From positions 1 through 54,395 of the forward strand of contig JALCBQ010000005.1 in the NCBI GenBank assembly GCA_028066335.1: DNA of 54,395 nucleotides, in the 5' to 3' direction. Both the position numbers and the translations under genes were made by a program. This document shows, one piece after another, positions 9,338-17,602 of the stretch. Numbering within the stretch: the stretch's first letter is position 1; each line of letters starts with the position of its first letter. The notes below the pieces were generated by a model that had not been told where the DNA came from, did no database searches, and saw only the letters and a program-made list of their open reading frames with translations. The stretch is from Pirellulaceae bacterium. GTDB taxonomy: Bacteria; Planctomycetota; Planctomycetia; Pirellulales; Pirellulaceae.

Positions 9338-9604
9338 ATGGCTCACATTCTCCGTAAAAAATTAAGGACTAAAAACGTGGACATCAGCATGACAATGACT
9401 CTCTTAACCTGCCTCGTTGGACTAGGCGTTACGATAATGATGGCCGGAATCCCCTGGGCGTACAGTATCCATGGCCGGCTCACCAAAATTGAAACCAATA
9501 TTGTTGACAGCCTGGAATGTCGCGAAAGAATTGACGAACTCGGCGAAAGGGTTCTCCGCATTGAAATTAAACTGGATAGTAATAATGACCATTCCCAAAG
9601 CTAA
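9338..9604 (+). CDS. small membrane protein with one TM helix and a coiled coil
   Basis: Read from ATG 9338 the protein has 88 residues; a GTG at 9317 would add seven. After a basic N-terminus there is one strong transmembrane segment (LLTCLVGLGVTIMMAGIPWAY), then a charged heptad-like stretch (LTKIETNIV, then RIDELGERVLRIEIKL). Small proteins with a TM helix and coiled coil occur at the edges of phage lysis and packaging gene sets, but I cannot assign a family. The end overlaps the next gene by 20 nt, which ties it to the ParB-like/terminase run. Confidence 0.6.
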   Translation: MAHILRKKLRTKNVDISMTMTLLTCLVGLGVTIMMAGIPWAYSIHGRLTKIETNIVDSLECRERIDELGERVLRIEIKLDSNNDHSQS

Positions 9605-10211
9605 AAAACCTGTTTACAAAACCAAAAATGGAGTGGTCGCCGATCGAATTCTCTCGCTTCGCCGAATTCCCATTTCGTCTATTATTCCCCGAAAAAATCG
9701 TTGGCGAAAACACCCCAAGAGACAAAAAGATCTCCTGACCTCACTACTTCAGGAAATCGGCTTTACTCAGCCGATCGTCGTCACCCCAAGCCGGCAGAAA
9801 AAAAACGAAGAGCAGTTTATCCTCCTCGACGGTCACCTGCGCCTTGAAATTTTAACTGAGCTTCAAGCAGCAGCTAAAAGTAAGTCGCCACCAAAAATCC
9901 CTGCTCTTGTTTTACAACTCTCACAAAAAGAAGAGCGGGCTTTGGCGATCTTTAGCGACTACACAACACAGCTCTCCCAAAAAGACAAAGCTGAGCTTGC
10001 TAGTCTGAGCAAATCGATCGAGTCGAAGAACAAACAAATTTTAGCCTCTCTTGAGAAGATCGAACAACAAGACAGGAATGCCAGACAACGCAAAGTCGCT
10101 GTGCCTGAATTCCATCACATCCAAATTGAGTGCACCGACGAAGAAGAACAAAGAGAGGTCTATGATCTCGTCAAAAGAAAAGGTTATTCTTGCCGGATTC
10201 TGACTCTCTAA
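9585..10211 (+). CDS. ParB-like (ParB/Srx fold) protein of phage type
   Basis: A 208-residue protein from ATG 9585; an earlier in-frame start would extend much further into the upstream gene. Residues about 24-90 are a ParB N-terminal domain: a strand with RIPISSIIP, a helix ending in GFTQPIVV, and the diagnostic DGHLRLE at 82-88. The C-terminus ends EEEQREVYDLVKRKGYSCR, a pattern I associate with ParB-like proteins of phages and mobile elements rather than chromosomal ParB. It lacks the central HTH domain expected of a partition ParB. ParB-fold domains bind nucleotides and can act as nucleases or CTP switches; the activity here is unknown. The next gene begins 33 nt downstream. Confidence 0.8.
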   Translation: MTIPKAKKPVYKTKNGVVADRILSLRRIPISSIIPRKNRWRKHPKRQKDLLTSLLQEIGFTQPIVVTPSRQKKNEEQFILLDGHLRLEILTELQAAAKSKSPPKIPALVLQLSQKEERALAIFSDYTTQLSQKDKAELASLSKSIESKNKQILASLEKIEQQDRNARQRKVAVPEFHHIQIECTDEEEQREVYDLVKRKGYSCRILTL

Positions 10212-10244
10212 CCATAAACAATAACGAACGACAGGGGACATTTT

Positions 10245-11390
10245 ATGAAAGTTCAAAAACATAACTACAACCTAGTTTGCCATACTAAACCGAGTTTTCG
10301 CAGCGAACAAGTCATCGGGATGTTTGGTCTCGACCAGGAAGAGGCCTCGTTGTGTAAAACTGAAATTCAATCAGAGCTACCACTGCTGAGTGAAGATTGG
10401 TCGATCGGTGCAATCGTCGGGCCATCAGGGTCGGGCAAATCGACACTCGCTCAAAAAGTCTACGAAAAACAATACTACAACCCTAAAAAGACCCGATGGA
10501 AAAAAGAGGTCTCAATAATCGATCACTTCCCCTTAAAGTCGACGATCAAAGAGGTCACTCATCTATTGACAAGTGTTGGTCTTTCCTCACCGAAAGCCTG
10601 GCTACGCCCCTATTCGATCCTTTCAACGGGTGAAAAGTTCCGTGCCGATCTCGCCCTGGCCCTTCTTTCATCAGACTCGGTACTCGCCTTCGACGAGTTT
10701 ACCAGTGTCGTTGATCGCCAAGTTGCCCATGCGATCTCTTATTCGGCAGCTCGTGCTATTCGGAAAAAAAGAATCGAGAAGAAATTCGTAGCAATCAGTT
10801 GTCATACCGATATCCTCGATTGGTTAAGGCCCGACTGGGTTTACGACATGGGCTCGGGCCAGCTCGCCCGAGAGTGCCTTCGGCAAAGGCCACCTATTGA
10901 GCTGGAAATCGTCCGTTGTCGACAAACCCTCTGGTCAATTTTTTCAAAGCATCACTATTTAAACCACAACATACCTCAATCAGCGACCTGCTACCTGGCA
11001 ACATGGGACGACCAACCGGTCGCCTTCTGCGCCGTCGTCGGCATGTTTGGCAGAAAAGGGCGTAAACGAATTAGCCGTATCGTTACCCTTCCTGACTATC
11101 AGGGACTGGGGATCGGCTCATCCCTGTTAGAAAGTGTTGCGACCCATCAACAAGAATTAGGGTTCCGTATAAACATTACAGCAAGTCATCCCGCAGTCAT
11201 TTCTTATTGCAAATTATCATCAGCCTGGAAAGCTGTCGGCTTCTCAAAAACAGGCCACCACGGAAAACAGTATTTCCAAGATATCCGTTTCAAAACCTCG
11301 TTTGGTCGGGCAGTTGCCTCGTTCGAATGGCTCGGTCCCTCGAAGCACCATCCCCAAATGCAAACGACCGCAACAAAATCTCTACGATAA
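10245..11390 (+). CDS. ABC-type ATPase fused to GNAT acetyltransferase-like domain (COG2401 type)
   Basis: A 381-residue protein. The N-terminal half is an ABC ATPase: Walker A GPSGSGKST at 59-67, signature LSTGEKFRADLA at 126-137, Walker B VLAFDEF at 146-152 and switch histidine ISCH at 184-187. Residues about 228-345 form a GNAT fold with the acyl-CoA loop RIVTLPDYQGLGIGSSLL at 278-295. There are no membrane segments, so it is not a transporter subunit. This domain order matches the predicted ABC-acetyltransferase fusion known as COG2401. The GNAT half opens with SKHHYLNH, which resembles Mom-like base-modifying GNATs of phages; that comparison is from memory. DNA or protein modification driven by an ABC motor is an inference. 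Confidence 0.82.
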   Translation: MKVQKHNYNLVCHTKPSFRSEQVIGMFGLDQEEASLCKTEIQSELPLLSEDWSIGAIVGPSGSGKSTLAQKVYEKQYYNPKKTRWKKEVSIIDHFPLKSTIKEVTHLLTSVGLSSPKAWLRPYSILSTGEKFRADLALALLSSDSVLAFDEFTSVVDRQVAHAISYSAARAIRKKRIEKKFVAISCHTDILDWLRPDWVYDMGSGQLARECLRQRPPIELEIVRCRQTLWSIFSKHHYLNHNIPQSATCYLATWDDQPVAFCAVVGMFGRKGRKRISRIVTLPDYQGLGIGSSLLESVATHQQELGFRINITASHPAVISYCKLSSAWKAVGFSKTGHHGKQYFQDIRFKTSFGRAVASFEWLGPSKHHPQMQTTATKSLR

Positions 11391-11470
11391 GATTTTTCAA
11401 AAAGTCTTTCGTCACGAGCCAACGTTTTATCTCTATTAACTTTTTCTTTTGATTTTCGCAGGCTCAAAAT

Positions 11471-11962
11471 ATGAACAAACCACCAACAAACCGCGAGTAC
11501 GATATTTTCACGGCAGTCACTGTTCACGGAAAATCGCTTACCGAAGTCGGTCAACAATACAACGTTCGCCCTACTCAAGTTAGCCGAATTGTTTCAAAAA
11601 CAAAAAAGTGGCTCTCCATGGAACTTCTTTTCAAAGAGGAAGAGTCCCTACCCAACCTGACACTACTACTCCACAAAAAACGATTAGAACATCAATGGTA
11701 CGAGTACATGAACTCTTGGTACCTCTCCTCAAAGGAGGCTCAGGGAGGAGATTGGCGACTCCTGGAACAAGCTCGGAAAGTTCTGGCAGAAATCCGGCAA
11801 ATCATACAACAAATCACCCAGAACAACAAAGAAGGCGAGCCCGATGCCACACAAATCCCCGAAGAACAACGAGATGAAATTATCCGATACCTCATGGATC
11901 AAATTCGCAACCGACGAACAACTCAAGGCTCTTCTAAAACTCTTCCCCAAACCGACCAATAA
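11471..11962 (+). CDS. small HTH protein in terminase small-subunit position
   Basis: A 163-residue protein. The N-terminal 45 residues hold a helix-turn-helix (HGKSLTEVGQQYNVRPTQVSRIV). Long helical regions (about 55-135) suited to oligomerisation follow, then a polar tail. This layout fits small terminase subunits, which recognise DNA and dock the large subunit. They are too variable to prove by eye, so the call leans on the large terminase gene that begins inside its 3' end. The two frames overlap by at least 89 nt. Confidence 0.6.
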   Translation: MNKPPTNREYDIFTAVTVHGKSLTEVGQQYNVRPTQVSRIVSKTKKWLSMELLFKEEESLPNLTLLLHKKRLEHQWYEYMNSWYLSSKEAQGGDWRLLEQARKVLAEIRQIIQQITQNNKEGEPDATQIPEEQRDEIIRYLMDQIRNRRTTQGSSKTLPQTDQ

Positions 11963-13331
11963 AACCAATAACACTCCCCTCCAAATCTATTGTCCAATCG
12001 CCCCTACCCCCAAACAGACACTTTTTCTCAAGCAAAAGAAACGGGAAGTTTTTTACGGTGGAGCCGCCGGGGGTGGTAAAAGTAACGCCTTACTCATGGG
12101 TGCCCTGCAATACGTTCATATACCAGGATACTCTGCTATTATTCTCCGAAAAGATCTGCCTCGACTTCGCCTCTCTGGCGGTCTTTTGCCACAAAGTCAT
12201 GCCTGGTTTTCACACACCTCGGCGACCTGGAACAGCCGTGATTGGCGATGGACTTTTCCAACCTCACAAGGCTCACCGGCGACAATCAGCTTTGGTTACT
12301 TAAAAAACAGTCTCGACAAATTCCGTTACGGATCGAGTGAATACCAATACATCGCCTTTGACGAGTTGACCGAATTCACCGAAAACGATTACCTTTTTAT
12401 GTTTTCACGTTTGAGATCGACCAAAAAAATTAACGTCCCACTACGAATCCGGGCCGCCAGCAACCCCGGCAACCTCGGTCACCAATGGGTCAAGCGTCGG
12501 TTTATTCCCGAATTTGACCACTTAAAACCGAAAAAATTCTACCAAAAAAATGGCCGCGTTTTTATACCAGCCTCAATCGCCGATAACCCTTTCGTCAACG
12601 AAAAAGAGTACACCAAAAGTCTCCAAAACCTGCCGACTGTTTTACGAGAAAGACTTTTAAATGGTGACTGGCGTATTCAAGATATTGGCCTTATCAAACA
12701 AGAGTGGCTACAGTACTACTCGTTTGACGGTGGGAAATTTTTTCCCCTTAATCAGACAAAAGATACCCCGCAAACAATCTCTCTCAAAGAAGGAACCGTC
12801 TTTACAACAATTGACCCGGCAGGAACGAGTGCTGAAAAGGCTCGTGAAACGAAAGGTTACCAACCGAGTTGGTCGGTCGCCTCGACCTGGTTCTGGAGTC
12901 ACAACCCTGTCTATCCTGATCGACTGTTTCTTTTAAGCGTTTGGCGAGAGCGGGTCAGCTTCGACCGTTTGTGTGCTGCGATTGAAAACATCGCTAAAAA
13001 GTGGCAACCAAAAAAAATTCTCATTGAGAACGAAAAACTTGGCAAAGCGGCTGTTGACATCTTAGGGCAACACTTGCCAATTGAGACGATTGCAACCAGA
13101 GGCCAAGACAAAGTAACCCGTGCCGCCCCCTTCATTAACAAACTACAACAAGGGGAGATCTATTTTCCCGAAGCGAATAATGGGTGGCTTGCAACCTTTG
13201 AGGCCGAGCTTCTCGGTTGGACTGGCCTTCCTCAAGAGACCTCCGACCAAATCGATACGGCCGCCTATGCAGCCGACTACTTGCTAAAAAACCGTCCTCA
13301 ACAAGGGGCAATCTTTACCGACTGGACCTGA
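11874..13331 (+). CDS. phage-type terminase large subunit (ATPase plus nuclease)
   Basis: DNA-packaging motor protein of the TerL family. From ATG 11874 it has 485 residues; ATG 11844 would add ten. Numbered from 11844, the ATPase has an adenine-motif TPKQTLFL (55-62), Walker A GGAAGGGKS (72-80), Walker B YIAFDE (169-174) and AASNP motif III (204-208). The RNase H-like nuclease keeps three acidic residues: Asp324 in TTIDPAG, Glu395 in LIENE and Asp471 in DQIDTAAYA. All motifs look intact, so the protein is probably active. No start codon exists in frame between the end of the upstream gene and Walker A, so translation must begin inside the upstream gene. No portal, protease or capsid gene follows; the next gene is on the opposite strand. 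Confidence 0.92.
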   Translation: MKLSDTSWIKFATDEQLKALLKLFPKPTNKTNNTPLQIYCPIAPTPKQTLFLKQKKREVFYGGAAGGGKSNALLMGALQYVHIPGYSAIILRKDLPRLRLSGGLLPQSHAWFSHTSATWNSRDWRWTFPTSQGSPATISFGYLKNSLDKFRYGSSEYQYIAFDELTEFTENDYLFMFSRLRSTKKINVPLRIRAASNPGNLGHQWVKRRFIPEFDHLKPKKFYQKNGRVFIPASIADNPFVNEKEYTKSLQNLPTVLRERLLNGDWRIQDIGLIKQEWLQYYSFDGGKFFPLNQTKDTPQTISLKEGTVFTTIDPAGTSAEKARETKGYQPSWSVASTWFWSHNPVYPDRLFLLSVWRERVSFDRLCAAIENIAKKWQPKKILIENEKLGKAAVDILGQHLPIETIATRGQDKVTRAAPFINKLQQGEIYFPEANNGWLATFEAELLGWTGLPQETSDQIDTAAYAADYLLKNRPQQGAIFTDWT

Positions 13332-15781: not shown

Positions 15782-17602
15782 ATGGGTCTTGCAAAATCCT
15801 ATAACACAAAGAATGTTTACATCAGCGAAAGAAAGGGTTTCGCCGTGAACAAACGATACCAAAATCTTGCGATTGCCCAACTATGCGATCAACTTCGCTT
15901 TACTCCGCCCAAAGTACAGTATGAGGAGACCTTGCGCGCCGAGCGACTCATTGAAGAGCTACTCCCAGAAAAAGAGTACAGCTTCGAATACCTCTACTTC
16001 CGTATAACAGGTCAGCGACCAGATAAGACCGAAATAATATTAATTCATGGACGCGATGCAATCCATGACCTTCGTATTTTTATCGAAGACCTCTCATTCC
16101 TTGCCTGTATTCCAGTCAACGAAGCGGGCGAAACGGTCCACACAATTCAAGATCTCAGCAAACGATTTCAGGTCGCTACCAAAACAATTTCACGATGGCG
16201 AGAACAGGGACTCATCGCCCGTCGCTTTCTCTATAACGGCCGCAAACGCCTCGGCTTTCTTGACAGTAGTATCGAGAGGTTTCTCGTAAAAAACAAGGAA
16301 CAAGTCCTTCGTAGCGAGCGGTTCCGCCAACTAAGCTATCAAGAGAAAAACAATATCGCCCAATCGGCCCGACACCTTGCCCACGCAGGGTATAAATTCT
16401 CGGAAGTCACCAAACGGCTAGGCAAAGAACTAGGCCGATCGACCGAGACAATACGCTATACCCTCAAAGAATACGATAAGAAAAATCCTCGCATAGCGAT
16501 CTTTCCCAACCAAAATGATTCCCTCTCCCATGAGGGGAAACGGTCGATCTATGAACAGTACCACAGTGGTGAATCTGTCAAAAACCTCTCCGACCGATTT
16601 CAACGGACTCCGAGCAGTATTTACAGAATTCTTAGCGAAATCCGAACCGAACATGTCCTACAACTTCCCCTAGACTACATGGACAGTGACGAGTTTGCCG
16701 CCGCAACGACCGACGACGACCTCGATGCAGAAATCCTCTCCGAACTCCTTCTCCCTCAGGAAAAAGAGAACAAGGTTCGACCACCAAGCAACCTCCCGCC
16801 TTATTTGGCAGCTCTTTACCAAACCCCCCTTCTTAATCGACAACAGGAAGCTCACCTTTTCCGAAAATACAACTATCTGAAGTTCAAGGCCTCAAAACTC
16901 CGACAGGGAGCGGAAGAGGCACAAGCAGCAGAGCCAGGGGCTTGGCAAGCTTCTCGGCAAAAAGGAGATGTCCCAGCAGAAGAGGGCTCGTCTGCAGTGA
17001 CCAGAAAACCCCTTACAAAACAGGTTCTTGACGAGATCGAATCCCTCTATCAACAGGCGATCAAGGTTAAAAACCAGATTTTAAAAGCGAACCTGCGGCT
17101 TGTTGTTTCGGTCGCCAAGAAACATAGTGCCGCCAACCGAGGGTTCTTTACCTTGATCTCTGACGGTAATATGTCACTTATTCGGGCGATAGAAAAGTTC
17201 AACTACACACTTGGAAACAAGTTTAGTACCTATGCCACCTGGGCGATCATGAAGAATTTTGCCCGCTCCATTCCGGCAGAACTAAAACATCAAGACCGCT
17301 TTCGCAACACCGCTGACGAGACCTTTCAGTTCAAGGAAGATTTTCGCGCCAACGCCGCCAAGCAGGAGGCCGAAAACCGTGTACGTGAACAACAAATCGG
17401 TAACATGCTTCACTACCTAGACAAGCGTGAGCAACAAATTATCATCCATCGATTTGGCCTAAACTATCAAGAAGAGCCCAAAACCCTCCAGGAGGTAGGA
17501 AAAATCCTTGAAGTCACCAAAGAGCGTGTTCGCCAAATCGAGGCGAGGGCACTGAACAAACTACGTGTCGCGGCCAAGAAAGAGAAAATCGATCCTGAGT
17601 AA
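15782..17602 (+). CDS. sigma-70 family protein with HTH-rich N-terminal extension
   Basis: A 606-residue protein. The N-terminal half holds three predicted helix-turn-helix units: a MerR/excisionase-like one at about 121-150 (IQDLSKRFQVATKTISRWRE), another at 205-232 and a third at 262-288. Sigma region 1.2 follows (340-374), then an Ala/Glu-rich linker (375-410), region 2 (428-500, with RLVVSVAKKH, LISDGNMSLIRAIEKF and FSTYATW) and region 4 (540-600, DKREQQIIIHRFGL, TKERVRQIEARALNKLR). Regions 1.1 and 3 are not recognisable. It probably directs RNA polymerase to promoters, with the HTH units adding DNA contacts. GTG 15845 is an alternative start. A terminator follows 57 nt after the stop. 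Confidence 0.85.
   Translation: MGLAKSYNTKNVYISERKGFAVNKRYQNLAIAQLCDQLRFTPPKVQYEETLRAERLIEELLPEKEYSFEYLYFRITGQRPDKTEIILIHGRDAIHDLRIFIEDLSFLACIPVNEAGETVHTIQDLSKRFQVATKTISRWREQGLIARRFLYNGRKRLGFLDSSIERFLVKNKEQVLRSERFRQLSYQEKNNIAQSARHLAHAGYKFSEVTKRLGKELGRSTETIRYTLKEYDKKNPRIAIFPNQNDSLSHEGKRSIYEQYHSGESVKNLSDRFQRTPSSIYRILSEIRTEHVLQLPLDYMDSDEFAAATTDDDLDAEILSELLLPQEKENKVRPPSNLPPYLAALYQTPLLNRQQEAHLFRKYNYLKFKASKLRQGAEEAQAAEPGAWQASRQKGDVPAEEGSSAVTRKPLTKQVLDEIESLYQQAIKVKNQILKANLRLVVSVAKKHSAANRGFFTLISDGNMSLIRAIEKFNYTLGNKFSTYATWAIMKNFARSIPAELKHQDRFRNTADETFQFKEDFRANAAKQEAENRVREQQIGNMLHYLDKREQQIIIHRFGLNYQEEPKTLQEVGKILEVTKERVRQIEARALNKLRVAAKKEKIDPE

Follow-up and report, generated by a model that had tools for sequence, protein, structure and literature searches.

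A candidate gene-transfer-agent (GTA)-like DNA-packaging block in a Pirellulaceae genome and its relatives across the order Pirellulales

The window analysed here is the whole of contig C31 (54,395 nucleotides) from a 2.9-Mb draft genome of a Pirellulaceae bacterium (a MAG, here G000), and carries a block of five plus-strand genes, all present with intact reading frames in the window sequence (Table 1). A first-pass annotation, made from the letters of this DNA alone, had reported five linked plus-strand genes with intact motifs in the large terminase (TerL), and this description was borne out by the sequence, by profile matches and by alignment, in which Walker A, Walker B and the nuclease acids of TerL line up with those of two other genera and of the Methanobacterium phage psiM2.

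Table 1. Genes of the packaging block on contig C31 (positions in the window).
Feature	Position	Strand	Remarks
Small membrane/coiled-coil protein, 88 aa	9338..9604	+	Adjoins the ParB-like gene, upstream of it; holin-like is a guess
ParB-like protein (ParB/Srx fold), DGHLR motif	9585..10211	+	PHROG ParB families
ABC ATPase-GNAT fusion	10245..11390	+	phrog_11143, E 2.3e-102; Pfam ABC_tran, Acetyltransf_1/_7
TerS-like protein, N-terminal HTH	11471..11962	+	Homologue precedes TerL in G020
TerL, psiM2-like, intact ATPase and nuclease motifs	11844..13331	+	phrog_979, 5e-67; Terminase_6N, 1.5e-6

The membrane protein, which has no Pfam match, is 41-45% identical to the proteins occupying the same slot in two relatives from other genera (G020 and G003), with a fainter likeness to the slot proteins of G041 and G113. 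The open frame of the ParB-like gene begins at 9471, the later start tabulated here being favoured by homologues, and its product matches PHROG ParB/methyltransferase N-domains at 2.9e-13 and 2.5e-9. The HTH of the TerS-like protein gave a weak sigma-70-like (sigma-r4-like) match in NCBIfam (1.5e-6). TerL is 48-52% identical to its counterparts in the blocks of G003 and G020 and 36% identical to that of psiM2; terS and terL overlap in the window as they do in G020 and psiM2, although the psiM2 portal gene directly follows the terminase, whereas that of the window genome lies at another locus (see below). A sequence search of the PDB returned no relative of TerL or of ParB.

The ABC-GNAT protein is similar over its full length to the phrog_11143 fusions of an ABC ATPase with GNAT, and its Walker A, signature, Walker B, H-loop and GNAT QGxGxG (the acetyl-CoA loop) are invariant across 32 aligned homologues, while its structural model, a confident one (pLDDT 87.6), matches a Leptospira phage LE4 protein along the full length. 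In several genera (L024-L029, and others), an insertion that varies in length and keeps the frame lies between signature and Walker B, at about residue 144 of the window protein. The ParB homologue adjoins ABC-GNAT across nearly all relatives, and ParB is directly followed by ABC-GNAT also in the complete, replicating Gordonia phages Sisko and Jace, whose ABC-GNAT proteins are about 36-42% identical to that of the window; in Sisko, one gene and then terminase and portal come next. Judged by these sequence relationships, the ParB-ABC-GNAT pair is of phage origin. A homologous ABC-GNAT with the same two domains (36% identity, E 4e-37) occurs in the jumbo-phage setting of Tenacibaculum phage pT24, named in a report that predicts acylation of a DNA base by the phage fusion (PMC7824862), and the window protein is likewise predicted to be a DNA-base acyltransferase or a packaging accessory. 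Its ABC half weakly matches PADLOC mad3 (1.7e-11); a defence-system reading of this hit was rejected, since the similarity is confined to the ABC domain.

On its left, the block is flanked by cellular genes (NfeD, NfeD, FloA, MsrB, Fur, a PQQ protein and DUF1294), and on its right by an opposite-strand gene, with rpoB further on. The sigma-70 factor encoded at 15782-17602 of the window has a long N-terminal extension with MerR/HTH-like domains, its top NCBIfam match being an MZA-associated sigma factor, far under the cut-off. No structural phage genes were found on C31; the rest of the genome has them. The earlier statement that such genes are missing nearby thus holds for the contig and fails for the genome, and the accompanying idea of a minimal, orphan system with TerL but no portal falls with it, for the search of the same genome that the first-pass annotation had proposed located both portal and capsid at another locus.

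Specifically, a capsid fragment near the block of G003 matches one G000 gene, on contig C77, the end of which holds a putative scaffold, a cap_E major capsid protein (MCP; PF03864, Phage_cap_E, 3.8e-8), a gp36-like adaptor (7.4e-7) and tail-like genes, and a Mu-type portal lies on contig C178 (PF06074, 1.1e-11). The ends of C77 and C178 have 17 exact bases in common and a 547-aa frame stays open over the join, so that the two contigs join into a single structural module, ~8 kb long and bordered on either side by cellular genes; base composition of the contigs is consistent with one bin. Portals of the phrog_21 and PF04860 types gave no match in this genome, the Mu-type being matched instead, and the C77 capsid matched none of the phage records. 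A Rep-like HTH_36 gene stands beside the capsid module on the opposite strand (L122 13531-14061), and no integrase was found among the genes annotated around the two loci. Because of the G003 evidence and the shared phage character, and because no other portal was found, C31 and C77/C178 are probably two loci of one system.

Among 60 relatives, the window's type of TerL found full-length strong matches in G003 and G020 only, and in both it is preceded by the membrane protein, ParB and ABC genes (over a contig break in G020) and followed by unrelated genes on the opposite strand; their cellular neighbours differ. That three genera retain the block at about 50% identity indicates that it is old and constrained. 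The G000-type MCP was found in G003 alone among the 60 genomes, where it lies with a weakly similar scaffold close to the block, and the G000-type portal was found in neither G003 nor G020. Capsid and portal types vary by genus within the window's family, which points to module exchange or to the domestication of separate phages. Yet another variant in this family is that of G019 (L048 9810-20000), where ABC-GNAT and TerS are accompanied by a TerL of still another type and by a portal of the Mu type (phrog_113, 3.3e-29). Such differences between genera, together with the Rep-like gene adjoining the capsid module and the incomplete gene set on the contig, would fit the decay of one or two prophages of which packaging and head genes remain, without present function. 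We consider this rather unlikely, however, as every frame and catalytic motif is intact, the same block persists in three genera at the divergence given above, and related clusters elsewhere occupy fixed sites under strong purifying selection.

These related clusters extend over the order. Strong ABC-GNAT matches were obtained in about 27 of the 60 relatives, the usual order in other families being ParB, ABC-GNAT, TerS, TerL (phrog_38), portal (phrog_21), protease, decoration, MCP and adaptors. The portal was found in 24 and the MCP in 26 of the 60 genomes; of the 23 that belong to families other than the window's, 19 carry both, usually once, and 112 of 198 genomes of the order had the portal, mostly as a single intact copy of near-constant divergence. 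When 84,980 species were scanned, the best 80 of 149 portal relatives were planctomycete-titled, save one in a MAG titled Nealsonbacteria, which is probably misbinned. Of 426 relatives in IMG/VR, the 80 retained are on contigs 4-32 kb long; a viral label is attached there to many short contigs that belong to the planctomycete cluster (L234-L313). On the strength of these comparisons of predicted genes, a related gene set is present in most Pirellulales families, usually in one copy, and a divergent version, with a psiM2-like TerL, occurs in the window genome and in two further genera. In the proposed comparison of neighbourhoods across planctomycetes, the block is kept in G003 and G020 and the order-wide cluster includes capsid genes; an orphan module is at odds with relatives that carry it alongside portal, protease and capsid.

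Two further arrangements were observed among these relatives: a second ParB-like/ABC-GNAT copy in G059, which is divergent and sits apart from the main cluster (C1, about 2.087 Mb; L022/L133), and, in G113 of the Lacipirellulaceae (L357 8936-12105), a conserved cassette before ParB comprising a papain-like protein (by eye), a trypsin-like protease, an unknown protein and a small membrane protein. This pre-ParB cassette of the Lacipirellulaceae is a possible release module. No HTH match was found in the TerS of G113. In G028 and G045, ParB and ABC-GNAT have no terminase nearby, which, with the weak mad3 match, would suit a domesticated packaging or DNA-modification module acting independently of capsids, e.g., in defence or competition. 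Such a role appears highly improbable given that TerL retains both its ATPase and its nuclease, that the genome has a portal and a capsid, and that portal and MCP co-occur in the order.

Evidence on inheritance comes from the order-wide relatives. In a Lacipirellulaceae-like family, genes upstream of the cluster are common to Bythopirellula, Botrimarina, Lacipirellula and further genera (including MogA/MoaB-like and endonuclease/exonuclease/phosphatase-like genes, named from sequence), and downstream ones to several, while one genus of the window's family has kept a fixed cluster site of its own. Within genera, dN/dS was mostly 0.04-0.2 at dS near 1 (0.21-0.33 in one genus). Congruence with rpoB is seen at family level: Mantel correlations were about 0.5-0.6 (ABC 0.54, portal 0.53, MCP 0.54) and weaker for TerL, protease, decoration and ParB; splits were shared with rpoB (P 0.004), with two families forming clades in both trees, and in its deep backbone the portal/MCP tree disagrees with rpoB. 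Dispersal is seen in the single-contig complete genome G041, where the packaging genes are preceded by the capsid genes and the portal is about 50 kb from TerL, with FabF (a name given from its sequence) among the genes in between, in G045, where ABC, TerL-portal and MCP fall on three separate contigs, and in Bythopirellula G147, where the capsid half runs in the opposite direction to the packaging half. As read from gene arrangement and dN/dS, this fixed neighbourhood in Lacipirellulaceae and dispersal elsewhere is the signature of a GTA-like element, not of a mobile prophage.

A temperate prophage would be contiguous, with integrase, lysogeny and replication genes, at a variable site; found instead were two cellular-flanked loci and flanks shared by related genera. 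The gene families are nonetheless phage families, and the viral label that many short contigs of this cluster carry in IMG/VR would agree with an active temperate phage or capsid-forming satellite split by assembly alone. We regard this as very unlikely, because cellular genes bound both loci, no integrase occurs among the genes annotated around them, and the portal of the order is mostly single-copy, nearly constant in divergence and set in shared chromosomal flanks. The first-pass annotation had named a complete prophage in close relatives as the finding that would refute it: full head-and-packaging sets do exist there, yet their behaviour is that of chromosomal genes passed on vertically and not that of mobile prophages, so the finding was made in part only. 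Its suggestion of domestication, with a link to GTAs, is supported by the relatives, in which the genes are retained vertically at a fixed site, evolve under purifying selection and, in some, lie at dispersed loci.

Taken together, we favour the view that the block supplies the packaging functions of a (GTA-like) particle system domesticated from a phage in the window genome, a reading that is reasonably probable, and a GTA-like function of the order-wide cluster is likely. GTAs tend to occupy several loci (PMC11841831), as do the genes of G000 (C31 vs. C77/C178), G041 and G045, and packaging and head genes are intact (TerL, TerS, portal, MCP and adaptor in G000, full sets in relatives). In Alphaproteobacteria, RcGTA, CcGTA and DsGTA likewise derive their packaging and head genes from phages and pass them on vertically; the genes are often spread over several loci and often annotated as prophage (PMC11841831). 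Compared with the RcGTA type, the planctomycete candidate, predicted from its genes, belongs to a different phylum and phage ancestry and has ParB and ABC-GNAT before the terminase; in addition, the window TerS has an HTH, whereas the TerS of all known GTAs is without a detectable DNA-binding domain (PMC11841831).

From these genes, we infer particle formation, host-DNA packaging, transfer and base modification as follows. In a few cells, TerS and TerL would cut host DNA and dock on the portal encoded at C77/C178, and headful filling of the capsid would follow; ParB and ABC-GNAT may bind the DNA for packaging and acyl-modify or organise it, and the membrane protein might assist release. It is tempting to speculate further that Pirellulales have an ancient GTA unrelated to the proteobacterial ones, in which ParB/ABC-GNAT chemically marks the packaged host DNA, e.g., against recipient restriction; we hold this full scenario as doubtful, the marking having its precedent in the phage ABC-GNAT predicted to acylate a base (PMC7824862).

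GTAs have been proven experimentally in few lineages, and the review cited above names none in Planctomycetota (PMC11841831); nor did we find a report of a planctomycete GTA in the literature searched (a scope that left preprints and most subscription journals outside). The Pirellulales cluster would probably be a previously unreported GTA. If so, head and packaging genes that span nearly the whole order, mostly as single copies under selection, could be tested in cultured hosts (Lacipirellula, Bythopirellula, Botrimarina and Aeoliella), the chromosome would be a setting in which a predicted DNA-acylating phage enzyme has been kept, and viral catalogues would hold many GTA-like clusters labelled as viruses.
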